From Cohaesibacter gelatinilyticus (GTDB lineage Bacteria; Pseudomonadota; Alphaproteobacteria; Rhizobiales; Cohaesibacteraceae): 64,000 nucleotides of DNA. The notes beneath the pieces were generated by a model. The model searched no databases, had not been told where the DNA came from, and saw nothing but the letters and a program-made list of their open reading frames with translations. Shown in pieces: positions 24,103 to 36,755 of the stretch (the first letter of the stretch is position 1; every line of letters starts with the position of its first letter). Both the position numbers and the translations under genes were made by a program. The DNA is taken from positions 1 to 64,000 of the forward strand of contig NZ_OBEL01000009.1 of NCBI RefSeq assembly GCF_900215605.1, in the 5' to 3' direction.

Positions 24103-25005
24103 TCAGACAAATTTGCGGAAAAGTCTTGTTTCATCAAACAAGGCTTCAAGCACCTGCATCCGATCCTTGGTATCTCCCCAGTTTTCGGTTTGCACTGCTG
24201 CAATCATGGTCTCGATTACGAACATTATGACCACCGAGCTATCCCATGCCGACGGCACTTCAATTCTGCAATTAAAACAATAATCTGCCACCTCGGAAAC
24301 CGGCGAACTCCATTGATCGGTGAACAGAATCACCTGAACACCGCGATCCCGCGCCATCTGCGCAAGTTTTCGGATATCACGCTCATAGCGACGAATATCG
24401 AAAATGACCAATACGTCGCCTTCTTTCATATTCAAAACATAATGCGGCCAGGCATTCGAGTTGGACGCAATCAATGTCACGTCCTGTCGGATCACTTGCA
24501 TATGGGTAAAAAAGTAATCTGCCAATGCTCGCGATATGCGTCCGCCCACTATGTGAACAGAACGTTTTGTATCTGCCAGAAGGTTGGCCGCATTATCAAA
24601 ATCATCGACGTCGATCTGAGCAAGGGTCTGGCGCATATTCTGCATTACAGAATCAGCGAAACGATTGAGTATATGCGTATCCGGTGCCGCCTCGCTCCAG
24701 CGATCATGCTTGGCAATCGGGTCCGAGATCTTGGCTTCCAGTTCGCTATGCAAGCAGGCCTGAAATTCGGGATATCCCTTGAAGCCCAGCTTCTGAACCA
24801 TCCGAGCGACAGTGGGTGTTGAGACCTTGGCATTCTCAGCCAGCGTCGTAATACTGCCAAGACCCGAAACCGGGTAATTTTCCAGCAAGCAATTTGCCAA
24901 CTGACGCTCAGCGCGGGTCAGGTCATCAAAATTATTACGCAGCAATTCCGCGATGGTTTTTGAGCGATCAGACAAAAGGCTCCTCGCTTTCCGAGTTGAT
25001 TCCAT
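24103..25005 (-). CDS. RpiR-family transcription regulator (HTH plus SIS domain)
   Basis: A 300-residue regulator. An N-terminal RpiR-type helix-turn-helix covers about residues 15-90 (TTLAENAKVSTPTVARMVQK is the recognition region). A C-terminal SIS sugar-isomerase-like sensing domain lies at about 130-265 (SVHIVGGRISRALADYFF; LVIFDIRRYERD). Such proteins sense phosphosugars or other small anionic ligands. It is divergent from the amidohydrolase-TRAP-ligase operon. The gap between them contains a perfect 20-base palindrome, so it most likely controls that operon. Confidence 0.93.
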   Translation of the reverse strand: MESTRKARSLLSDRSKTIAELLRNNFDDLTRAERQLANCLLENYPVSGLGSITTLAENAKVSTPTVARMVQKLGFKGYPEFQACLHSELEAKISDPIAKHDRWSEAAPDTHILNRFADSVMQNMRQTLAQIDVDDFDNAANLLADTKRSVHIVGGRISRALADYFFTHMQVIRQDVTLIASNSNAWPHYVLNMKEGDVLVIFDIRRYERDIRKLAQMARDRGVQVILFTDQWSSPVSEVADYCFNCRIEVPSAWDSSVVIMFVIETMIAAVQTENWGDTKDRMQVLEALFDETRLFRKFV

Positions 25006-25042: not shown

Positions 25043-25062
25043 TCTGAAAAGATTTTTTCAGA
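25043..25062. promoter_or_regulatory. Perfect palindrome, candidate RpiR operator
   Basis: TCTGAAAA, spacer GATT, TTTTCAGA: eight-base arms with no mismatch, inside the 126-base divergent gap. It lies just upstream of a TTGACA box at 25070-25075. The TGAAA/TTTCA half-site type is common for RpiR-family proteins. Confidence 0.7.
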
Positions 25063-25131: not shown

Positions 25132-25953
25132 GTGCCACATTCTGCTTCAAATCAGAACAAAATGACCGTCTTGCAGACCGGAGAGCCCTCCCCGGTGACA
25201 TTGATCCATGCGCAAGCAGCTGGCGACATCCTATTGATTTGCGAACATGCCTCAAATCATTTCCCGAAATCACTCGGCAGCCTGGGATTGAATGAGGAAG
25301 CAACCAGGAGCCATGTTGCCTGGGATCCGGGTGCATTGGGTGTGTCACTACACTTAAGCAAATTGCTGGATGCCAGCTTCATCCATCAGAATTACTCACG
25401 CCTCGTTTATGATTGCAATCGTCCACCAAGTGCTCACGATGCCATGCCAGCGCGTAGTGAAGTCTTCGATATTCCCGGCAATCATAATCTCTCACAAGAT
25501 GATAGAGATGCGCGTACCAATGCCATCTATCGTCCGTTTGAGACAGCACTCGCAGACTTCATCAAGGCGCGCAGAGAAGCGAGTCGTCCACCCTTCATCA
25601 TCACAATCCATTCCTTCACGCCCATCTATCACGGCAAGAAACGTGAGGTGGAATTGGGCATTCTTTTCGATCAGGACACCCGCCTTGCCAATGCTATTCT
25701 GCGATCAAGCACGGACGAAAACGATTTGATCATCCGTGCCAACGAACCATACAGTCCAACGGATGGCGTGACCCATACCCTTCAAACCCATGCCCTTCCC
25801 TTCGGCCTTCACAATGTGATGATCGAAATCCGCAATGATCTGATTGAAACAGAAGATCAGCAAAGGGCTATGGCTGAAAAATTATCCCGGCTGTTCACTG
25901 CAGCCATCGCCCAGATATCCGCGCAAGACGGATCCCGGACAACGGGGGCATAA
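25132..25953 (+). CDS. N-formylglutamate amidohydrolase-family hydrolase
   Basis: A 273-residue zinc-dependent hydrolase of the N-formylglutamate amidohydrolase family. The segments ICEHASNHFP, HVAWDPGALG, YSRLVYDCNRPP and HSFTPIYHG are the family pattern and hold the likely metal and carboxylate-binding residues. I chose the GTG at 25132 because AGGG lies about seven bases upstream; an ATG at 25162 is possible. Classic members free glutamate from N-formylglutamate in histidine breakdown, but no hut gene is nearby. Being first in an operon with a glutamine-synthetase-like ligase, it may instead hydrolyse a gamma-glutamyl amide. Confidence 0.88.
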   Translation: MPHSASNQNKMTVLQTGEPSPVTLIHAQAAGDILLICEHASNHFPKSLGSLGLNEEATRSHVAWDPGALGVSLHLSKLLDASFIHQNYSRLVYDCNRPPSAHDAMPARSEVFDIPGNHNLSQDDRDARTNAIYRPFETALADFIKARREASRPPFIITIHSFTPIYHGKKREVELGILFDQDTRLANAILRSSTDENDLIIRANEPYSPTDGVTHTLQTHALPFGLHNVMIEIRNDLIETEDQQRAMAEKLSRLFTAAIAQISAQDGSRTTGA

Positions 25954-25999
25954 CCAACATGCAATCCCGCAATCGCCACCTGCCAATGGGGAGCAGATC

Positions 26000-26527
26000 G
26001 TGCCAAATGCGATAACAGCCTTTGTCAGATATGTGAATGTGATGAACCGTCATGTCGGTACCATCGCTATGTATCTGATTTTTGTGATGATGGGAATTCT
26101 GCTCTATTCCTCCATCTCCAAGACTTTTTTCACACCTTCCATCTGGACGTTGGAAATGGCCCAGTTCGTCATGGTGGCCTACTATCTTTTGGGTGGTGGC
26201 TATTCCATGCAGCTCGATGCCCATGTTCGTATGGATCTGTTCTATGGCAGCTGGTCACCAAAGACCCGAATGCTAATGGACTGCTTCACTGTTCTACTGC
26301 TTATCTTCTATCTGTTCATGTTGCTCTATGGCGGCATTTCGTCCACCGAATATGCTCTCAAATATGGCGAGCAGAGCTATTCCGCCTGGGCTCCTCAAAT
26401 GGCTCCCATCAAAATCATCATGTGCATCGGTATCTTCCTGATGTTGCTACAGGCCATTGCAGCCTTCTTTCATGATCTTGGTCGTCTGCGCGGCGTGGAT
26501 ATTCTGACCGGGGAGGACATCGGATGA
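26000..26527 (+). CDS. TRAP transporter small permease DctQ
   Basis: A 175-residue membrane protein with four hydrophobic segments, the DctQ layout (residues about 20-40, 50-70, 95-115, 140-160). I chose the GTG at 26000 because GGGGAG sits seven bases before it; upstream residues in this frame overlap the amidohydrolase gene and look non-coding. It supports the large permease in sodium-driven uptake of small organic anions or zwitterions. It overlaps dctM by four bases (ATGA) and follows the amidohydrolase in the same operon. Confidence 0.92.
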   Translation: MPNAITAFVRYVNVMNRHVGTIAMYLIFVMMGILLYSSISKTFFTPSIWTLEMAQFVMVAYYLLGGGYSMQLDAHVRMDLFYGSWSPKTRMLMDCFTVLLLIFYLFMLLYGGISSTEYALKYGEQSYSAWAPQMAPIKIIMCIGIFLMLLQAIAAFFHDLGRLRGVDILTGEDIG

Positions 26528-27846
26528 GCTATGAAATGATTGCCCTTTTGATGTTCAGCACCATGATGGTCATGTTGCTGACAGGACAACGTGTCTTTGG
26601 CGCCATCGGCTTTGTCGCAGCAGGTGCAGCTTTGCTGCTTTGGGGAACCGGTGGATCGGAAATGGCCTTTTCCGCATCCATGAAGCTGATGAAATGGTAT
26701 CCGCTCCTCACCCTGCCATTGTTCATTTTCATGGGCTATATGCTGTCCGAATCCGGCATTGCGGAAGATCTTTACAAGATGTTCCATGTCTGGATGGGTC
26801 CGCTTCCCGGCGGCCTTGCAGTCGGCACCATCGGTCTGATGGTCATCATCTCGGCCATGAATGGTCTGTCCGTTGCTGGTATGGCGATTGGCGCAACCAT
26901 CGCGCTGCCAGAGCTGTTACGCCGCGGTTATGACAAGATCATGGTTACCGGCGTCATTCAGGCAGGCTCTTCCCTTGGCATTCTGGTGCCACCATCCGTC
27001 GTTCTGGTTCTCTATGGCATGATCGCCCGCCAGCCAGTTGGCAAGCTATGGCTCGGCGGCGTGTTTCCTGGTCTCATTCTGGCGGCCATGTTCATCGCCT
27101 ATATCGTGATCCGCTGCAAAATGCAGCCCAATCTTGGTCCAGCACTGCCAAAAGAAGAGCGTGACATGCCAATGAGCGAAAAGCTCAAGCTGCTACGCGC
27201 TGGCATTCTACCCTTGATCATCTTCTTCCTGATGACCGGACTGTTCCTGATGGGAGTTACATCCCTGGTCGAAAGCTCCGCGGTCGGTGCGGCTTCCGCC
27301 ATGGGTGCTGCCGCCATCAAGGGGTTGCTGAACAAGCAATTGATCGAGTCCACCGTTCGCAAGACCCTTGGCATTTCCTGCATGTTCATGTGGATCATCC
27401 TTGCGGCCCTTTGCTTTGGTGCCGTGTTTGACGGTCTGGGTGCAGTGCGTGCCATCCGCACCCTGTTCCTGGATGATCTGGGCCTCGGTCCATGGGAAAT
27501 CCTGATCATGATGCAGCTCTCCTACATCCTGATGGGCATGTTCCTGGATGACACCGCAATGCTTGTGATTGTGGCCCCGCTCTTCATTCCGCTTGTCGGA
27601 TCTCTCGGTTTCGATCTCATCTGGTATGGCGTTCTCTACACCATCACCTGTCAGATCGCCTATATGACACCACCCTTTGGCTACAACCTGTTCCTGATGC
27701 GCGCCATGGCGCCCCCAACGATATCCCTGATCGATATCTATCGTTCCGTGGTGCCTTTCGTTGCCATCATGGTGCTGGGATTGGCCTTAGTTACCATCTT
27801 CCCCGAGCTGGCCACCTGGCTACCGGAGAAAGTCTATGCCCGCTAA
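26524..27846 (+). CDS. TRAP transporter large permease DctM
   Basis: A 440-residue protein with about twelve hydrophobic helices forming the translocation channel. It contains the DctM signatures GIAEDLYKMFHVWMGPLPGG, GSSLGILVPPSVVLVLYGM and FLDDTAMLVIVAPLFIPL. ATGA overlap with dctQ indicates coupled translation. It differs clearly from the two DctM proteins near 52 and 58 kb, which resemble each other more. Confidence 0.95.
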   Translation: MSYEMIALLMFSTMMVMLLTGQRVFGAIGFVAAGAALLLWGTGGSEMAFSASMKLMKWYPLLTLPLFIFMGYMLSESGIAEDLYKMFHVWMGPLPGGLAVGTIGLMVIISAMNGLSVAGMAIGATIALPELLRRGYDKIMVTGVIQAGSSLGILVPPSVVLVLYGMIARQPVGKLWLGGVFPGLILAAMFIAYIVIRCKMQPNLGPALPKEERDMPMSEKLKLLRAGILPLIIFFLMTGLFLMGVTSLVESSAVGAASAMGAAAIKGLLNKQLIESTVRKTLGISCMFMWIILAALCFGAVFDGLGAVRAIRTLFLDDLGLGPWEILIMMQLSYILMGMFLDDTAMLVIVAPLFIPLVGSLGFDLIWYGVLYTITCQIAYMTPPFGYNLFLMRAMAPPTISLIDIYRSVVPFVAIMVLGLALVTIFPELATWLPEKVYAR

Positions 27847-27856
27847 TGCGAGCTCC

Positions 27857-27884
27857 GATCTTGCCGGGAAGACCTGGCAAGATC
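27857..27884 (+). promoter_or_regulatory. Intercistronic hairpin between dctM and dctP
   Basis: Perfect nine-base arms GATCTTGCC/GGCAAGATC with a ten-base loop, 10 bases after the dctM stop. No T-run follows, so it fits an mRNA processing or stability element better than a terminator. Confidence 0.5.
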
Positions 27885-27979
27885 TCCCACGATAAGAAAG
27901 GGCAAAAGCCCATAACACCTGACAAACCACCACCATCCCTTCTGACCCCAACGGGTCGGAATTCCAGAGGAGAAGATCA

Positions 27980-29032
27980 ATGACCAACAGACGTGATTTT
28001 CTGAAAAAAGCAGGCATGGTTACTGCCGCAGCCGGGGCTTCCACCCTTGCGGCGCCTGCAGTCCATGCAGCAGGCAAGCCAATCAAGTGGCGCTTGCAGA
28101 CCTATGCCGGTGCAGCCCTTGCCGAGCATGTGATCAAGCCATCCATCGATGCCTTCAACAAGGCAGCCAATGGCGAGATGGAAATCGAGCTCTACTTTGC
28201 CGATCAGCTGGTTCCGACCGGCGAATTGTTCCGTGCCATGCAGCGCGGCACCATCGATGCGGTACAGTCCGATGACGATTCCATCGCTGCCCCGGTTGAT
28301 GTATCCGTGTTCGGCGGTTACTTCCCCTTCGCTTCCCGTTACAGCCTCGACGTTCCAGCTCTCTTCAACCATTGGGGTCTGAAGGAAATCTGGGAAGAAG
28401 CCTATAATGAAGTGGAAGGCGTTACCTGGCTCTCTGCTGGCGCATGGGATCCATGCCACTTTGCCACCAAAGACCCGATCAACAGCCTGGCAGATCTCAA
28501 AGGCAAGCGGGTCTTTACCTTCCCAACCGCTGGTCGCTTCCTGTCCCGCTTTGGCGTTGTCCCTGTCACTCTGCCTTGGGAAGACATCGAAGTCGCCATG
28601 CAGACCGGGGAGCTGGACGGCATCGCATGGTCCGGTATCACCGAAGACTATACCGTTGGCTGGGCTGATGTGACCAACTACTTCCTGACCAACAACATTT
28701 CCGGTGCCTGGGCTGGTTCCTACTTCGCAAATTCCGAGCGTTGGGACGAGCTGCCTGAGCATCTGAAAACCCTGTTCAAGCTCTGCATGGACAGCTCTCA
28801 CTATTATCGTCAGCACTGGTATTGGGCAGGTGAAGCCAAGCTGCGCACCCAAGGTACAAAGATGAAGCTGACTTCCATCCCTGATGAAGAATGGGCGACG
28901 GTTGAAGCCGAAGCACATAAATTCTGGGATGAAATTGCAGCCAAGTCCGACCGCAATGCTCGGGTTGTGAAAATCCTCAAGGATTATAACGCATCCATGG
29001 ATAAAGCTGGTCGTCCTTATCGCTATAGCTGA
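27980..29032 (+). CDS. TRAP transporter substrate-binding protein DctP, Tat-type signal
   Basis: A 350-residue periplasmic binding protein. The N-terminus has twin arginines (RRDFLKKAG) and a hydrophobic stretch ending AAPAVHA-AG, so export is probably by the Tat route. The body shows the DctP pattern: ELFRAMQRGTIDAVQSD, LKGKRVFTFPTAGRF, PWEDIEVAMQTGELDGIAWS and NISGAW. The ligand-contact arginine region differs from the AICCT-type binding proteins further along the window, so the substrate differs. AGAGGAGAAG lies just before the ATG. It follows dctQM in the operon. Confidence 0.95.
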   Translation: MTNRRDFLKKAGMVTAAAGASTLAAPAVHAAGKPIKWRLQTYAGAALAEHVIKPSIDAFNKAANGEMEIELYFADQLVPTGELFRAMQRGTIDAVQSDDDSIAAPVDVSVFGGYFPFASRYSLDVPALFNHWGLKEIWEEAYNEVEGVTWLSAGAWDPCHFATKDPINSLADLKGKRVFTFPTAGRFLSRFGVVPVTLPWEDIEVAMQTGELDGIAWSGITEDYTVGWADVTNYFLTNNISGAWAGSYFANSERWDELPEHLKTLFKLCMDSSHYYRQHWYWAGEAKLRTQGTKMKLTSIPDEEWATVEAEAHKFWDEIAAKSDRNARVVKILKDYNASMDKAGRPYRYS

Positions 29033-29050
29033 TAGCGTGGCATACACATT

Positions 29051-29077
29051 CCAGTCCCGAAACAGATTCGGGGCTGG
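29051..29077 (+). promoter_or_regulatory. Intercistronic hairpin after dctP
   Basis: CCAGTCCCGAA and TTCGGGGCTGG form an 11-base stem (one T-G pair) with a five-base loop, 18 bases after the dctP stop. There is no T-run, so it may stabilise the dctP mRNA end and raise binding-protein level. Confidence 0.5.
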
Positions 29078-29163
29078 ACCTTGAACAAGAAGCTGGCCCA
29101 AGCCAGTCCGACAATTACCCAAACAGATTTCGGTCAACCGACCACAGACGGAGAATTGCTACC

Positions 29164-30534
29164 ATGTCCGGTACCTTGTCTTTCGATCAACTCAAAGCCC
29201 TCACTGATAGCGGCGAGATTGATACCGTTCTGGCCTGCCAGGTCGACATGCAAGGTCGCCTGATGGGCAAGCGTTTTCACGCCTCCTATTTCTGCAAAAG
29301 CGCCTATGAGGAAACCCATAGCTGTAACTATCTGCTCGCCACCGACATGGAAATGGAAACCGTCGAGGGTTACAAATCAACGAGCTGGGAATCGGGCTAT
29401 GGCGATTATGTGATGAAACCCGACCTTGAGACGATCCGTCTGGTTCCATGGCTGGAAAAAACCGCCTTCATCATGTGCGATGTGCTGGACCACAATACTC
29501 ATAAGCCGGTTCCGCATTCCCCTCGCGCAGTCTTGCAAGCACAGATCAAACGCCTGAATGACCTTGGCATGACCGCTTTCATGGCTACCGAGCTGGAATT
29601 TTTCCTGTTCGAGCAAAGTTTTGAAGAAGCACACGAAGGTGGCTATCACGGCCTGAAAACCTGGGGCAAATATAATGAGGATTACCATATCTTCCAGACC
29701 ACCAAGGAAGAGAGCGTCATGCGCGCCATCCGCAATGGTCTGCATGATGCTGGCATCGAGGTAGAATGCTCCAAAGGTGAAGCAAGCGCCGGTCAAGAAG
29801 AAATCAATGTCAAGTATGCCGATGCCCTGACCACTGGCGATAACCATGCCTTTGTCAAAAATGCCTGCAAGGAAATCGCCTGGGCGCAAGGCCGTGCCCT
29901 CACCTTCCTTGCCAAATGGAGCAATGAGGCTGCGGGCTCTTCGTCCCATGTGCATCAGTCTCTTTGGTCAATCGACGGCAAGACCCCGCTCTTCTATGAC
30001 GAGAACCGCAAATATGGCATGTCCGAACTGATGGAACAGTATGTAGCCGGTCTGTTGCATAACGCCTCTGACATCACCTATTTCCTTGCGCCTTATATCA
30101 ACTCCTACAAGCGTTTTGCGGAAGGCACCTTCGCGCCAACCAAAGCCATCTGGTCCAAGGACAACCGTACCGCTGGCTATCGCATCTGTGGCGATGGCAC
30201 CAAAGGTGTGCGCGTCGAATGCCGAGTTGGTGGATCCGATCTCAATCCATATCTGGCCATGGCAGCCCTTCTGGCCGCTGGTATTGATGGGATTGAAAAC
30301 AAACGCGAACTGGAACCTGAATTCTCTGGCGATGCTTATGCTGCCAGTGATGCCCGCTCCATTCCGTCCACCCTGCGTGAGGCAACCAGTGTGTTGAATG
30401 ACTCAGCCATGCTGCGTGCTGCGATGGGCGATGAAGTCATCAACCATTATGTACGTTGTGCCGGCTGGGAACAGGAAATCTTTGACAAGCAGGTCACCGA
30501 TTGGGAAGTCGCGCGCGGCTTCGAACGGGCCTGA
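29164..30534 (+). CDS. Glutamine-synthetase-family ligase (probable gamma-glutamyl-amine synthetase)
   Basis: A 456-residue member of the glutamine synthetase family. The beta-Grasp N-terminus (VACQVDMQGRLMGKRFH at about 20-35) precedes the catalytic domain. That domain has metal ligands in ATELEFFLF, SSHVHQSLW, the arginine/NSYKRF loop and ECRVGGSDLNPYLAMAA. Ordinary GlnA lacks this N-terminal form and is normally found near glnB, absent here. Relatives such as PuuA, IpuC and the GlnA-like ethanolamine ligase join glutamate to amines. Its setting with aldehyde and alcohol dehydrogenases and an amidohydrolase supports such a ligase role; the amine is not known. Confidence 0.88.
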   Translation: MSGTLSFDQLKALTDSGEIDTVLACQVDMQGRLMGKRFHASYFCKSAYEETHSCNYLLATDMEMETVEGYKSTSWESGYGDYVMKPDLETIRLVPWLEKTAFIMCDVLDHNTHKPVPHSPRAVLQAQIKRLNDLGMTAFMATELEFFLFEQSFEEAHEGGYHGLKTWGKYNEDYHIFQTTKEESVMRAIRNGLHDAGIEVECSKGEASAGQEEINVKYADALTTGDNHAFVKNACKEIAWAQGRALTFLAKWSNEAAGSSSHVHQSLWSIDGKTPLFYDENRKYGMSELMEQYVAGLLHNASDITYFLAPYINSYKRFAEGTFAPTKAIWSKDNRTAGYRICGDGTKGVRVECRVGGSDLNPYLAMAALLAAGIDGIENKRELEPEFSGDAYAASDARSIPSTLREATSVLNDSAMLRAAMGDEVINHYVRCAGWEQEIFDKQVTDWEVARGFERA

Positions 30535-30571
30535 TAAAAGCCAGGGTCCCTCCCTGAATTAAAACCCGCAA

Positions 30572-31969
30572 ATGATGAGCCAAATCATGAGCAAGACTCT
30601 TCAATGTATCTCCCCCATTGACGGGAGCGTCTTTGCAGAACGGCAAACCCTTGATGGTGATGCCGCAAATGCCGTTGTCACCAAACTGACCAACGCCCAG
30701 AAAGCCTGGGCCGCCCGTCCCCTGAAGGAACGGATCGATCTGGTCATGGCCGGTGTCGCCAAAGTTGGCGAAATGAATGACGATATCGTTCCTGAGCTGG
30801 CCAGGATGATGGGCCGCCCGGTCCGCTATGGCGGCGAGTTTGGTGGTTTCAACGAACGCGCCTCGCACATGGCCACCATTGCCGAAGAATCGCTGGCTCC
30901 AATCGTGGTGGAAGAGAGCGACAAGTTCGAGCGCCGCATCCTAAAGGAACCCCATGGCGTGGTGCTGGTCATCGCCCCATGGAACTATCCTTTCATGACG
31001 GCCATCAACACCGTGGCTCCAGCACTGATTGCTGGCAACACCGTGATGCTGAAGCATTCCACCCAGACCATTCTGGTGGGTGAACGCATGGCAAAAGCCT
31101 TCCATGCAGCGGGCGTGCCAGAAGAGGTCTTCCAGAATGTCTTCCTGGATCATGACACCACCTCCAGTCTGATTGCCTCCAAAGCCTTCGGTTTTGTCAA
31201 CTTCACCGGTTCCGTCGGTGGTGGCAGGGCGATTGAAACCGCAGCTGCTGGCACCTTCTCCGGTGTTGGGCTTGAGCTGGGCGGCAAAGATCCTGGCTAT
31301 GTCATGGATGATGCCGATGTGGATGCAGCCGTTGATACCCTGATTGATGGTGCCATGTTCAATTCCGGTCAATGCTGTTGTGGCATAGAGCGTATCTATG
31401 TTCATGCTTCCAAATATGACGAATTTGTCGAAAAAGCCGTCAAGATCGTCTCCGGCTACAAGCTCGGCAACCCGCTGGATGAAGCCACCACCATGGGCCC
31501 GATGGCGCACAAACGCTTTGCTGAGGAAGTTCGCAGCCAAACTGATGAAGCAATCGAGGCTGGCGCCAAGGCTCTGATTGATCCATCCCTCTTCCCGGAA
31601 GATAATGGCGGCGCCTATCTGATGCCTCAGATCCTGGTGGACGTGAACCACGACATGCGGGTCATGCACGACGAGAGCTTTGGCCCTGTCGTTGGCATCA
31701 TGAAAGTGGAAAGCGATGAAGAAGCCATTGCGCTGATGAATGACAGCGAGTTCGGCCTGACCGCATCCCTTTGGACGCAGGATCCGGAGCGTGCAGCCAA
31801 TATTGGCGCTCAGATTGAGACCGGAACCATCTTCATGAACCGGGCTGATTATCTCGATCCGGGCCTGTGCTGGACCGGCTGCAAAAATACCGGACGCGGT
31901 GGCGCACTCTCCGTTATCGGTTATCAGAACCTGACCCGTCCAAAATCCTATCACCTGAAGAAGGCATAA
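30572..31969 (+). CDS. Aldehyde dehydrogenase
   Basis: A 465-residue NAD(P)-dependent aldehyde dehydrogenase. The catalytic base is E235 in LELGGKDP and the nucleophile C269 in NSGQCC. The cofactor loop is FTGSVGGG, and the C-terminal FMNRADYLDP is conserved. It probably oxidises the aldehyde made by the iron-type alcohol dehydrogenase that follows four bases later. It starts 37 bases after the ligase gene. A second ATG at 30587 is also possible as start. Confidence 0.94.
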   Translation: MMSQIMSKTLQCISPIDGSVFAERQTLDGDAANAVVTKLTNAQKAWAARPLKERIDLVMAGVAKVGEMNDDIVPELARMMGRPVRYGGEFGGFNERASHMATIAEESLAPIVVEESDKFERRILKEPHGVVLVIAPWNYPFMTAINTVAPALIAGNTVMLKHSTQTILVGERMAKAFHAAGVPEEVFQNVFLDHDTTSSLIASKAFGFVNFTGSVGGGRAIETAAAGTFSGVGLELGGKDPGYVMDDADVDAAVDTLIDGAMFNSGQCCCGIERIYVHASKYDEFVEKAVKIVSGYKLGNPLDEATTMGPMAHKRFAEEVRSQTDEAIEAGAKALIDPSLFPEDNGGAYLMPQILVDVNHDMRVMHDESFGPVVGIMKVESDEEAIALMNDSEFGLTASLWTQDPERAANIGAQIETGTIFMNRADYLDPGLCWTGCKNTGRGGALSVIGYQNLTRPKSYHLKKA

Positions 31970-31973
31970 CTCC

Positions 31974-33119
31974 ATGACGCTTAGTGCAAACTGGGGCTAC
32001 CCCACTCCTATCCGCTTCGGCGCTGGCCGCATCAAGGAAATCGGCGAGGCTTGTGAAGCCGCTGGCATGAAAAAGCCATTGCTCGTTACCGACAAGGGCC
32101 TTGCCAATCTGCCAATCACCTTGTCTACTCTCGATCTGATGGAAGAAGCTGGTCTTGGCCGTGGTCTCTTTGGAGATGTTGATCCAAACCCGACCGAGAA
32201 AAATCTCGAAGCTGGTGTAAAGGTCTTTCGCGATGGCAACCATGATGGTGTGATTGCCTTTGGCGGCGGTTCCGGTTTGGACCTTGCCAAGCTCATCGCT
32301 TTTCAGGCAGATCAAACCCGCCCAATCTGGGATTTCGAAGATATTGGTGACTGGTGGACCCGTGCGGATGCTGATGCCATCTATCCAAACATTGCCATTC
32401 CGACCACAGCTGGCACAGGTTCCGAAGTTGGCCGTGCAGGTGTGCTGACCAATTCCGAGAGCCACGTTAAAAAGATCATCTTCCATCCAAAGATGCTGCC
32501 AAGCGTCGTGATCTGTGATCCCGAACTGACCGTTGGCATGCCTCAGATGATCACTGTCGGCACCGGCATGGATGCTTTCATCCATTCGCTGGAGGCTTAC
32601 AGCTCCCCGCATTATCATCCAATGAGCCAGGGCATTGCTCTGGAAGGCATGCGCCTTGCCTGGGAAAATCTGCCAAAGGTTGCCAAAGACCCAAACGACA
32701 TCGAAGCACGTGGTCATATGATGGCCTCTGCTGCCATGGGTGCAACCGCTTTCCAGAAGGGTCTGGGTGCCATGCATGCCCTCTCCCATCCAATTGGCGC
32801 AGTCTTCAACACTCACCATGGCATGACCAATGCGATCGTGATGCCTGCAGTGCTGAACTATAACCGTCCAGCCATTGAAGAACGGATCGAAGCTCTGGCT
32901 CGCTATCTCAATATCGAAGGTGGCTTTGATGGTTTCTTTGCTGCTTTGATGAAGCTGAGCGAAGAGCTGGGGGTTCCAAAGAAATTGTCTGAGTTAGGCG
33001 TTACCGCAGATCGCATTCCAGATCTCGCAGCCATGGCGATCGAAGATCCAAGCTGCGGCGGCAACCCTCTTCCTGTGACACTGGAAGTCGCAACCAAGCT
33101 TTTGGAAGAAAGCGTCTAA
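31974..33119 (+). CDS. Iron-containing alcohol dehydrogenase
   Basis: A 381-residue group III alcohol dehydrogenase. NAD-binding GGGSGLDLAKLIAF is near residue 97, the PTTAGTGSEV segment follows, and metal ligands lie in GTGMDAFIHSLEAY and AMHALSHPIGAVFNTHHG. It is the last gene of the operon and starts four bases after the aldehyde dehydrogenase stop, so translation is coupled. In this setting it likely oxidises a terminal alcohol group of the imported or glutamylated compound. Confidence 0.95.
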   Translation: MTLSANWGYPTPIRFGAGRIKEIGEACEAAGMKKPLLVTDKGLANLPITLSTLDLMEEAGLGRGLFGDVDPNPTEKNLEAGVKVFRDGNHDGVIAFGGGSGLDLAKLIAFQADQTRPIWDFEDIGDWWTRADADAIYPNIAIPTTAGTGSEVGRAGVLTNSESHVKKIIFHPKMLPSVVICDPELTVGMPQMITVGTGMDAFIHSLEAYSSPHYHPMSQGIALEGMRLAWENLPKVAKDPNDIEARGHMMASAAMGATAFQKGLGAMHALSHPIGAVFNTHHGMTNAIVMPAVLNYNRPAIEERIEALARYLNIEGGFDGFFAALMKLSEELGVPKKLSELGVTADRIPDLAAMAIEDPSCGGNPLPVTLEVATKLLEESV

Positions 33120-33214: not shown

Positions 33215-33730
33215 TTACGTCCTAAATCTGGGCGGTAAAGGCAAATCAAAGGCGGCGCACAATGCCCGCACATCTGCCAAATCTTTCTCGGCCAACTCAT
33301 AGCCGCTATCGTGGGACAGAACCTGATAGGCCGCACTGAGGCACCGAACATTCCGGCCGGTTATATTGCCAATATCGGTAAAGCCGGATGCTGGATAGGC
33401 GTCACCATTTTCCGCCGGGCCATAAATTCCGTTGCCAGCCTCATCGAACACGATCACATGGAAATCGATGACCCGGCCATCTTCATGAGCCATCACGAAG
33501 TTCCAGTCACGCCGATCCTCACTTGGTGCATCTACAAAGCCCTGACTGCCTAGATAGGTGAGAGCTGCAGCCAGATGTCGTTGCTCGATGACGATATCGA
33601 GATCCTTATGCTTGCGGCTCTGAGATCCGAGCAAGGCATCGACACCCCATCCTCCATCAAACCAAAAGGGGACACCAGCCCCCTCCAATTCGTCATATAG
33701 ATGTATCACGTCTTCAGCACTCATTGCCAT
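33215..33730 (-). CDS. Nucleotidyltransferase (lincosamide/aminoglycoside-type fold)
   Basis: A 171-residue member of the small nucleotidyltransferase family related to LinA-type lincosamide and ANT(2'')-type enzymes. The hallmark GGWGVDALLG near residue 23 is followed by the acidic HKDLDIVIE, the two-metal aspartates. A third acidic site may be in RVIDFHVIVFDE. The start at 33730 has GAGG about nine bases upstream; a longer frame to 33769 overlaps the chemoreceptor stop. A natural resistance function is only a possibility, since many homologues have unknown substrates. Confidence 0.82.
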   Translation of the reverse strand: MAMSAEDVIHLYDELEGAGVPFWFDGGWGVDALLGSQSRKHKDLDIVIEQRHLAAALTYLGSQGFVDAPSEDRRDWNFVMAHEDGRVIDFHVIVFDEAGNGIYGPAENGDAYPASGFTDIGNITGRNVRCLSAAYQVLSHDSGYELAEKDLADVRALCAAFDLPLPPRFRT

Positions 33731-33737
33731 TGGTGCC

Positions 33738-35264
33738 TCAATCAGTCCGATAGCCCATCCGCAGACCACCCCAATGGCGTCCTCGCACGGTGATCGGAGC
33801 TGAGAGATCTTTCATCAGCACAAAATTGCCGCCGCCCATATCCCGACGATAGGTTTGCAGCAGGAACTTCTCCGTATTGCGACCTGCAGCCAGACCAACC
33901 CGGTCATCAAAGATACGACGATTGCGGCAATTGGCGGCATTCCAGACTTCGTCCTTACCCTGTGGCTTGGAAAAGACTTTGTTATGGGTTGGCAGATAGC
34001 CATTCTTGTCGACCGCCGCCACAAAGGCAATTTCCTTATGTTTGGCAACAATCGGTTCCTGAATGTCCGGCATCACGCGATCGGTCATGGCTGTGAATGG
34101 AGCCACAACCTGTTGCGGATTGGTCCCCTCAATTGGTGTATAGCTCTGATCAAACAGATCTTTCTCGGAAATGCGGCCAGAGCGCAATTCTTCTTCAAAC
34201 GTCTCCGATACTCGATGTGCGAGCTCCTCAATAGTCTGGATGTAGAAGGTATTCTCAGTCTCCAATCCTCCCAAGGAGGACGTCGCTACCAACTTATCGG
34301 ACGTTCTGGCAGCAGATACCATACGATCGGATGCTGAATTCAAGCCCTCCTGGTTGGTCTCGAAAGCACCATGAACTGAATTCACCTCATCGACCAAAGA
34401 TCGCAAGGATTGGTTGTTCTCGGCAACGCCACTTTCAATCTCCTGCGAAGATTGACGAATGGTTTGGAAAGCAGTGTCCAAACCTTGCAAGACTTCATGC
34501 ACGGAGGCTGAACTGGTTTCCACATCCCCCATTGCACCCGTTGCTTCAGCGCTCAACTCAATCAGCAATTCAGCCTCCTTGTCCAAATCGGAGAGCGTGT
34601 CTCCAATCGTCTCGGTTGCCTTACTGGTCTGGGCGGCGAGTTGCTTCACCTCACTTGCCACCACCGCAAAACCTTTGCCAGCTTCACCAGCACGGGCGGC
34701 CTCAATCGTGGCATTCAAAGCCAACAAATTGGTCTGACGAGCAATCGCATCAATGGCACCAGCTACATCACGTACAGATCCAAAGGCTTCCTGCAAACCT
34801 TGCAGTTGCGTGCTGATACCACTGACTGCTCGCATCAATTCCGCAACTTTGAGATTGGTCGTCTCAACCATCTCACGACTTCGGGCCATATCGACAGATG
34901 TCTGCTCCGCTACTTCAAAGGAAGCGCTCGCTGCAGCGTGGATACGATCATTGGACTCCTGAACCATGCCAGCAGAGGATTTCAATTGTGAGAAGGAATG
35001 AAAAACTTCATTGGTCTCACTGCTGAGCTGCTCAATCTCTCCTGCAACGTCAGCCAGTTCCTGACCCAACCCATTCAGATCATGAACCACATTGCGAAAC
35101 AGGCCCTCATCAAATTGTGTTGTCTTGGCAGCAACAGATTGTCCCATATCTGTTGTCATCGTTTCATTTTGTCCCACCTCAGAGTGATCCTGAGCCGGGC
35201 CAGCATGTTCCCGCTGCTGGCGCCGCTTGAAGTTTAGCATCACAGTCTCAATCATCTTCATCAA
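33738..35264 (-). CDS. Cytoplasmic methyl-accepting chemotaxis protein with C-terminal sensor
   Basis: A 508-residue chemoreceptor without any hydrophobic membrane segment. The signalling coiled coil covers about residues 45-340. Its tip, [20 protein letters not shown], is at about 174-194. A C-terminal domain (about 355-508) follows the coiled coil and resembles a Cache-like ligand domain ([32 protein letters not shown]). This reversed order, signalling first and sensing second, is unusual but known in soluble receptors. The gene ends immediately before the nucleotidyltransferase start on the same strand. Confidence 0.9.
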
Positions 35265-35543: not shown

Positions 35544-36755
35544 ATGATGACGCTTAAAGCCTCCTCCCTCGGCTTCACGAAATTGGCCGGCAAGATTGTC
35601 CTTCCCGCACTGTTGTTGGCAGGTATCGCGAGTACGAGCTCCGCGACCGCTGCTCCAAAAGTTGTTGCCACCATTGCCCCAGTTCATTCCATCACTCAAG
35701 CCATTCTTGGTGATGTGGGCAAAGCGGACATGCTGGTGCCTCAAAATGCATCCCCGCACAGTACAGATTTCCGCCCATCACAGGCAAAAGCCCTGCAGGA
35801 AGCGGATTTGGTCGTCTGGGTAGGTCCCGATATCGAGACATTTCTGATCGACCCTCTCAAAACACTCGCTGGCAAGGCCCATGTTTTGGAGTTGATGGAT
35901 GCAAAAGACATCATACGTCTGCCATTGCGCTCTGGAGGCGATTGGGAAAAGCATAATCACGATCATGATGAACATGATGATCATGACCATGATAAAGATG
36001 CCAAGCACGATGATCATGACGACCATAAGGACCATGATCACGACAAAGATGCCAAGCACGATGATCATGACGACCATAAGGACCATGATCATGACAAAGA
36101 GGCCAAGCACGATGATCATGACGACCATAAGGACCATGATCACGACAAAGAGGCCAAGCACGATGATCATGACGACCACAAGGATCATGATCACGACAAA
36201 GAAGCCAAGCAGGATGATCACGGCCATGACGAAGGTGGCATGGACAACCATATCTGGCTGGACCCACAAAACGGTATCGCCATGGCCAATGCCATTGCTG
36301 CGGAACTAGTAGAAATTGATCCAGACAATGCCAAGGTCTATGAGCAAAACAAGGATGCATTTGTCAAAAAGCTGAATGCCTTGATCGAGGAAGGCAAGAA
36401 AGAGCTCGCACCATTGTCAAAACGCCCATTCCTTGTCTTCCATGACGCTTATCAATATCTGGAAGCGCGCTTTGATCTGAGTGCAACCGGCTCCATCATG
36501 CTGCAGCCAGGTGTTTCACCCGGTGCTGCCCGTGTGAAAGAAGTGCGCAAGAAACTCACTGATCTGAAAGCGATCTGCCTGTTCACCGAACCACAATTCT
36601 CGGACAAGATCGTCCCGGTTCTGCTGGAAAACACACCGGCCAAGCTCGGCACGCTGGATCCGATTGGTGCGACAGAAAAAGCGGGATCAAATCTCTACAT
36701 CAACCTGATCCGCAACAATATCAAAGCTTTGAAAGATTGCCTTTCAACGACTTGA
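35544..36755 (+). CDS. znuA: Zinc ABC transporter binding protein ZnuA with long His/Asp loop
   Basis: A 403-residue periplasmic zinc-binding protein. A signal peptide ends near residue 37 (SSATAAP). Probable zinc ligands are His 48 (IAPVHSI), His 72 (PHSTDF), a His in NHIWLDP and an Asp near the C-terminus. Between them residues about 137-232 form a loop extremely rich in His and Asp, built from a 17-residue repeat. Such loops capture zinc and pass it to the main site. A Zur-like box precedes the gene. No znuB or znuC lies beside it, so the ATPase and permease must be elsewhere. Confidence 0.95.
   Translation: MMTLKASSLGFTKLAGKIVLPALLLAGIASTSSATAAPKVVATIAPVHSITQAILGDVGKADMLVPQNASPHSTDFRPSQAKALQEADLVVWVGPDIETFLIDPLKTLAGKAHVLELMDAKDIIRLPLRSGGDWEKHNHDHDEHDDHDHDKDAKHDDHDDHKDHDHDKDAKHDDHDDHKDHDHDKEAKHDDHDDHKDHDHDKEAKHDDHDDHKDHDHDKEAKQDDHGHDEGGMDNHIWLDPQNGIAMANAIAAELVEIDPDNAKVYEQNKDAFVKKLNALIEEGKKELAPLSKRPFLVFHDAYQYLEARFDLSATGSIMLQPGVSPGAARVKEVRKKLTDLKAICLFTEPQFSDKIVPVLLENTPAKLGTLDPIGATEKAGSNLYINLIRNNIKALKDCLSTT
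36001..36225 (+). repeat. 51-bp tandem repeat in the znuA metal-binding loop
   Basis: Four complete 51-base units begin at 36001, 36052, 36103 and 36154, each starting CCAAGCACGATGATCATG, with a partial copy after 36205 and a degenerate copy before. They encode 17-residue units such as KHDDHDDHKDHDHDKEA. Differences are single bases, mostly silent. Confidence 0.95.

Follow-up and report, generated by a model that had tools for sequence, protein, structure and literature searches.

A predicted eto-type operon for the conversion of ethanolamine to glycine in Cohaesibacter gelatinilyticus

The ethanolamine ammonia-lyase (EutBC) route deaminates ethanolamine to acetaldehyde, without glutamylation. 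A route by way of gamma-glutamyl intermediates has been assigned to Phaeobacter sp. MED193, in which the gene series MED193_10021 to 10056 runs RpiR-GGAH-EtoV-EtoW-EtoX-ETAGA-GAADDH-GETADH (PMC10132767). The roles given there are a gamma-glutamylglycine amidohydrolase (GGAH), followed by the importer, an ethanolamine gamma-glutamylase and two dehydrogenases. Five of the MED193 operon products rose on phosphorylethanolamine, EtoX also in the absence of phosphorus, and the dissociation constant of EtoX for ethanolamine was 7.9 uM (PMC10132767). According to the same source, which cites Vetting et al. 2015 on this point, the MED193 genes are closely related to those of an ethanolamine pathway demonstrated in Chromohalobacter salexigens and Agrobacterium tumefaciens; the title of its figure labels the pathway predicted. 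Chemistry equal to that proposed below has been described for Streptomyces (PMC6529630; reviewed in PMC9397018), and the review gives the steps as proposed for C. salexigens. Here we describe an operon in a 64,000-nucleotide stretch of the alphaproteobacterium Cohaesibacter gelatinilyticus (contig NZ_OBEL01000009.1, positions 1 to 64,000; hereafter the window), and we estimate with a probability of roughly 0.93 that it is an eto-type ethanolamine-utilization operon, encoding import of ethanolamine, its gamma-glutamylation and its conversion to glycine. Gene content, order, conservation, families and residues were computed, and ethanolamine binding and the pathway were taken from papers on other organisms; we infer each step of transport, catalysis and regulation in Cohaesibacter.

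Seven plus-strand genes at 25132-33119, delimited as open reading frames (ORFs) of the window, adjoin a divergent minus-strand RpiR regulator:

24103..25005, minus strand: MurR/RpiR-family regulator, counterpart of RpiR (MED193_10021) by gene order, not sequence
25043..25062, no strand: candidate operator, a perfect palindrome TCTGAAAA-N4-TTTTCAGA, between the regulator and the operon
25132..25953, plus strand: hydrolase of the N-formylglutamate amidohydrolase (FGase) family (PF05013), GTG start; proposed gamma-glutamylglycine amidohydrolase, by the published role of the gene at the equivalent position
26000..26527, plus strand: TRAP small membrane subunit DctQ (EtoV), by Pfam and locus comparison
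26524..27846, plus strand: TRAP large membrane subunit DctM (EtoW), by Pfam
27980..29032, plus strand: TRAP substrate-binding protein DctP (EtoX) with a twin-arginine signal, by Pfam and 75% identity to the PDB chain 4uab_A
29164..30534, plus strand: glutamine-synthetase-like ligase, proposed ethanolamine gamma-glutamylase, by Pfam and key residues
30572..31969, plus strand: aldehyde dehydrogenase (ALDH), by Pfam; proposed to convert the aldehyde to gamma-glutamylglycine
31974..33119, plus strand: iron-type alcohol dehydrogenase (Fe-ADH), by Pfam; proposed to oxidize gamma-glutamylethanolamide

The start of DctQ was set at the GTG at 26000 (the listed ORF starts at 25844). The genes are closely packed, with DctQ and DctM overlapping and 4 bases separating the ALDH and Fe-ADH genes. 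Every family assignment lies above its Pfam cut-off (FGase 139 bits, DctQ 75, DctM 221, DctP 73, Gln-synt_C 330, Aldedh 388 and Fe-ADH 159; SIS 72 and HTH_6 55 for the regulator), which bears out an earlier note on this DNA in its account of an RpiR-linked operon of these families. The sequence of events in that note, namely import, glutamylation, oxidation of alcohol to aldehyde to acid and release by an FGase-type enzyme, agrees gene by gene with the published assignment for ethanolamine to glycine (PMC10132767). Its remark that its author was aware of no described pathway with exactly this set has been overtaken: an identical series of eight genes was published for MED193 in 2023 and traced there to work of 2015 (PMC10132767). 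A candidate for a new pathway is thereby removed.

In the proposed pathway the TRAP importer would take up ethanolamine, which the ligase would join to glutamate with consumption of ATP to give gamma-glutamylethanolamide. The Fe-ADH would oxidize the alcohol of this intermediate to the aldehyde, the ALDH would convert the aldehyde to gamma-glutamylglycine, and the FGase-family enzyme would cleave the latter to glycine and glutamate. The freed glutamate would return to the cycle and glycine would probably enter the glycine cleavage system; a glycine decarboxylase is found in the genome.

Searched against the PDB, the binding protein yields 4uab_A as its sole strong match (E=5e-171; next E=2e-16), with identity at 242 of 323 aligned positions (75%). 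We take 4uab to be Csal_0678 with ethanolamine; the same sequence is also deposited as 4xf5, reportedly with 2-amino-1-propanol bound. In the PDB alignment Phe179 of the window protein falls on an arginine of 4yzz that we assume, from the motif as read in the alignment, to be the carboxylate-binding residue of the selectivity filter. Among 29 aligned binding proteins, the window's included, this column holds 25 Phe and 4 Tyr. The Chromohalobacter binding protein Csal_0678 binds ethanolamine and lacks the usual carboxylate-binding arginine (PMC4646407), and ethanolamine has been termed a surprise among TRAP ligands (PMC5812351). In two distant genomes, moreover, the TRAP genes are followed directly by EutB (PF06751, 729 and 741 bits) and then EutC (PF05985, 264 and 282 bits). 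These EtoX-type importer, EutB and EutC arrangements lie in a Zoogloeaceae metagenome-assembled genome (MAG; L151:10141-12436) and an Opitutaceae MAG (L160:10206-12597), and provide an independent pointer to ethanolamine.

The computed results do not fix the chain length of the substrate, and the reported ligand of 4xf5 would suit identical chemistry on another amino alcohol, such as 2-amino-1-propanol or 3-aminopropanol, leading to another amino acid. We judge this very unlikely given the 75% identity to 4uab_A, the EutBC genes adjoining the importer in two genomes, and a gene order equal to that of an operon induced on phosphorylethanolamine (PMC10132767).

The genome also contains a second EtoX-type TRAP system (G000:C1:1957573-1958610; L172:8574-9617), whose binding protein is 68% identical to that of the window. 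Nearby are a GlpR-like regulator, a kinase resembling glycerol kinase and an enzyme resembling glycerol-3-phosphate oxidase, each scoring below its model cut-off; a same-genus locus (L173) also carries the kinase and oxidase, and another (L174) is similar by eye. Glycerol, or a small alcohol akin to it, is a possible substrate of the second system.

We compared the ligase with family models and with the GlnA of its own genome, using the numbering of PMC6529630 and known motifs. The ligase scores 244.8 bits against the GlnA model (NCBIfam TIGR00653, cut-off 429.15) and 205.5 bits against the gamma-glutamylputrescine synthetase model (NF045547, cut-off 650), and also falls below the cut-off for type III glutamine synthetase. 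Phe323 replaces the flap glutamate, as it does in 46 of 46 relatives, and Streptomyces GlnA4 likewise has Phe at the flap position (PMC6529630). Retained are equivalents of the metal site (E129, E131, E212, E220, H269 and E357) and of the ATP site (H271 and R344), together with G265, R321, R339 and R359. The Asp50 column, which holds Glu in the window, is variable and lies in a gappy region of the alignment. The 205-bit match to the gamma-glutamylputrescine synthetase model is what a Puu- or Ipu-like amine pathway, with the two dehydrogenases serving other substrates, has in its favor; that score is far below the 650-bit cut-off, Pfam finds no amine oxidase among the eight genes, and the probability of such a pathway is close to nil.

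The operon FGase has a single PDB match at E<=1e-5, namely 2odf_A (Atu2144), and no NCBIfam family at E<=0.001. There are five FGase-family places in the genome. One of them, with a higher score than the operon FGase, is situated roughly 160 bases downstream of the genome's only HutH-family match (PF00221), on contig C4 and thus off the window's contig, and is presumably the true histidine-pathway hydrolase. The operon FGase has no linkage to histidine-degradation genes, the sole PF00221 match being on contig C4, and with a HutH-linked FGase elsewhere in the genome it is not obviously needed for N-formylglutamate. Both dehydrogenases fall below the cut-offs of their best NCBIfam models (Fe-ADH: 4-hydroxybutyrate dehydrogenase, 336 bits, cut-off 500; ALDH: succinic semialdehyde dehydrogenase, 294 bits, cut-off 521) and are therefore left unnamed by family; no PDB chain matches the ALDH at E<=1e-80.

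Family names alone would suggest an ordinary glutamine synthetase paralogue and a histidine-breakdown N-formylglutamate hydrolase in a loose nitrogen cluster. That arrangement is highly improbable, since a GlnA with the usual motifs occurs elsewhere in the genome, the ligase lacks the flap glutamate, the higher-scoring FGase stands beside the HutH-family match, and the neighborhood is conserved, as described below. On the model scores, Phe323, the HutH-linked FGase and the conserved neighborhood, we accordingly rejected routes of the amine-oxidase type, a role in ordinary glutamine synthesis and a role in histidine breakdown.

Conservation was followed in 101 genomes, with presence of the ligase and of the binding protein each called at E<=1e-100. 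The ligase is patchy: it occurs in 47 of the 101 (its own genome counted), and of 17 relatives within the genus only 6 carry it. Neighborhoods from all 46 other ligase genomes, and those of two paralogues of 40-43% identity, were searched with the eight proteins. The complete eight-gene order recurs in 21 of the 46 loci, and at least one of the FGase, ALDH and Fe-ADH in 43; under length and identity thresholds the counts are FGase 34, ALDH 36, Fe-ADH 39 and binding protein 28, with certain contigs terminating within the operon. The two paralogue loci contain ligase-type matches only. Importer loci were retrieved through the 29-sequence binding-protein alignment, the named loci being the best 80 among the matches listed, and two records are common to this set and the ligase set. 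The eight-gene order appears in 25 of these best 80 (22 exactly, 3 with one additional match), and the ligase within the locus in 57. Judged by record title, Alpha- and Gammaproteobacteria are represented among them, as are a Desulfopila and an Opitutaceae MAG that lacks the ligase. The gene order that the earlier note proposed to compare in related genomes is thus conserved in many of them and not everywhere, and its recurrence argues that the operon is more than a chance neighborhood. Across the 101 genomes, 34 of the 40 with the binding protein also have the ligase, versus 13 of the 61 without that protein (Fisher p = 2e-10, an overstatement because the genomes are related to each other).

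Several observations weigh against assigning this operon to ethanolamine. The PDB chains closest to the ligase, 5dm3_A and 11zs_A, are both deposited as glutamine synthetase; the glutamate-site residue N264 is Ala in the window ligase (Ala in 41 and Val in 5 of 46 relatives); and the ligase retains Tyr179, unlike GlnA4. In 3 of the 46 ligase loci (L038, L050 and L072) no other operon enzyme is nearby, and 13 of the 47 ligase genomes lack the binding protein. Conversely, 6 of the 40 binding-protein genomes lack the ligase (G006, G016, G025, G065, G075 and G095), and 23 of the best 80 importer loci have no ligase in the locus, with a ligase elsewhere (E<=1e-100) in only 7 of those 23 genomes. 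Three loci (L064, L047 and L051) have no TRAP genes, and the permease gene that they carry between the FGase and ligase genes has a general amino-acid permease as its best family. The likeness to MED193, another organism, is one of gene functions and order, not of direct sequence alignment. Finally, the 68% identical binding protein in a glycerol-type cluster indicates that this family may take other small alcohols. The three binding-protein paralogues all differ at core positions 86, 92 and 110 in an all-residue comparison, which does not settle the ligand. That in this genus the operon serves mainly some amino alcohol besides ethanolamine, as one branch of a wider EtoX-type TRAP family that takes small alcohols, uncharged or cationic, and has a second copy in this genome for a glycerol-like substrate, appears to us quite unlikely, and we retain ethanolamine as the predicted substrate.

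Of the 23 importer loci without a ligase, several of which are MAG records or cut contigs, 20 were searched for EutB, which was present in 2, both times directly after the importer. Seven of the 23 genomes have the ligase elsewhere and two have EutBC; of the remaining 14, 13 were searched and are EutB-negative (L143 was outside the search). No common neighbor was found for the ligase-less importer loci in a scan of ten ORFs from seven loci.

Variant operons were also observed. At L085:6438-7931 an ethanolamine-permease-like gene (TIGR00908 best, 359 bits, cut-off 381.75) stands between the FGase and ligase genes; it occupies the place of the window's TRAP genes, which are absent there. Between the ligase and ALDH genes of two other loci (L076:5674-6540 and L079:9494-10298) lie a DUF7662 protein and a PIN-domain protein, a toxin-antitoxin-like pair, which a pair in L044 resembles by appearance, not by family scan.

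The regulator probably controls the operon. A palindrome of the form TGAAA-N2..6-TTTCA occurs in 10 of 64 regulator-FGase gaps and is absent from 54, versus 0.08 expected from mononucleotide shuffles. We treat it as a lead only, because the shuffles are mononucleotide, two records are counted twice, and the gaps are mutually related and so not independent.

Elsewhere in the window, a minus-strand gene at 33215-33769 encodes a nucleotidyltransferase resembling lincosamide and aminoglycoside nucleotidyltransferases (best 106 bits, well below the curated resistance cut-off of 325). Inspected by eye, the product of a plus-strand gene at 35544-36755 is a ZnuA-like metal-binding protein that contains a long stretch of repeats rich in His and Asp.

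Taken together, the locus probably extends the published marine ethanolamine-to-glycine route to Cohaesibacter and adds evidence for its wide spread. The pairing of the importer with EutBC in two genomes and the importer paralogue in a glycerol-type cluster are modest leads.

Four known systems come closest to this operon. The EutBC route shares the substrate ethanolamine; EutB has no match in the Cohaesibacter genome (the E. coli control was positive). The GlnA4 pathway of Streptomyces coelicolor comprises a ligase, a dehydrogenase, an ALDH and an FGase-family amidohydrolase with the same proposed chemistry, and differs in having the orf2 short-chain dehydrogenase instead of an Fe-ADH, another putative transporter and another regulator (PMC6529630); orf5 is labelled a glutamine amidotransferase in a figure legend of that paper. 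The Csal_0678 TRAP system of C. salexigens, which belongs to another bacterial class, has the loss of the arginine in common with the window's binding protein. In the MED193 eto operon all eight gene functions and their order are identical to those found here, RpiR included. The pathway and gene order have thus been described previously, and the operon in the window is a further member of the published type.

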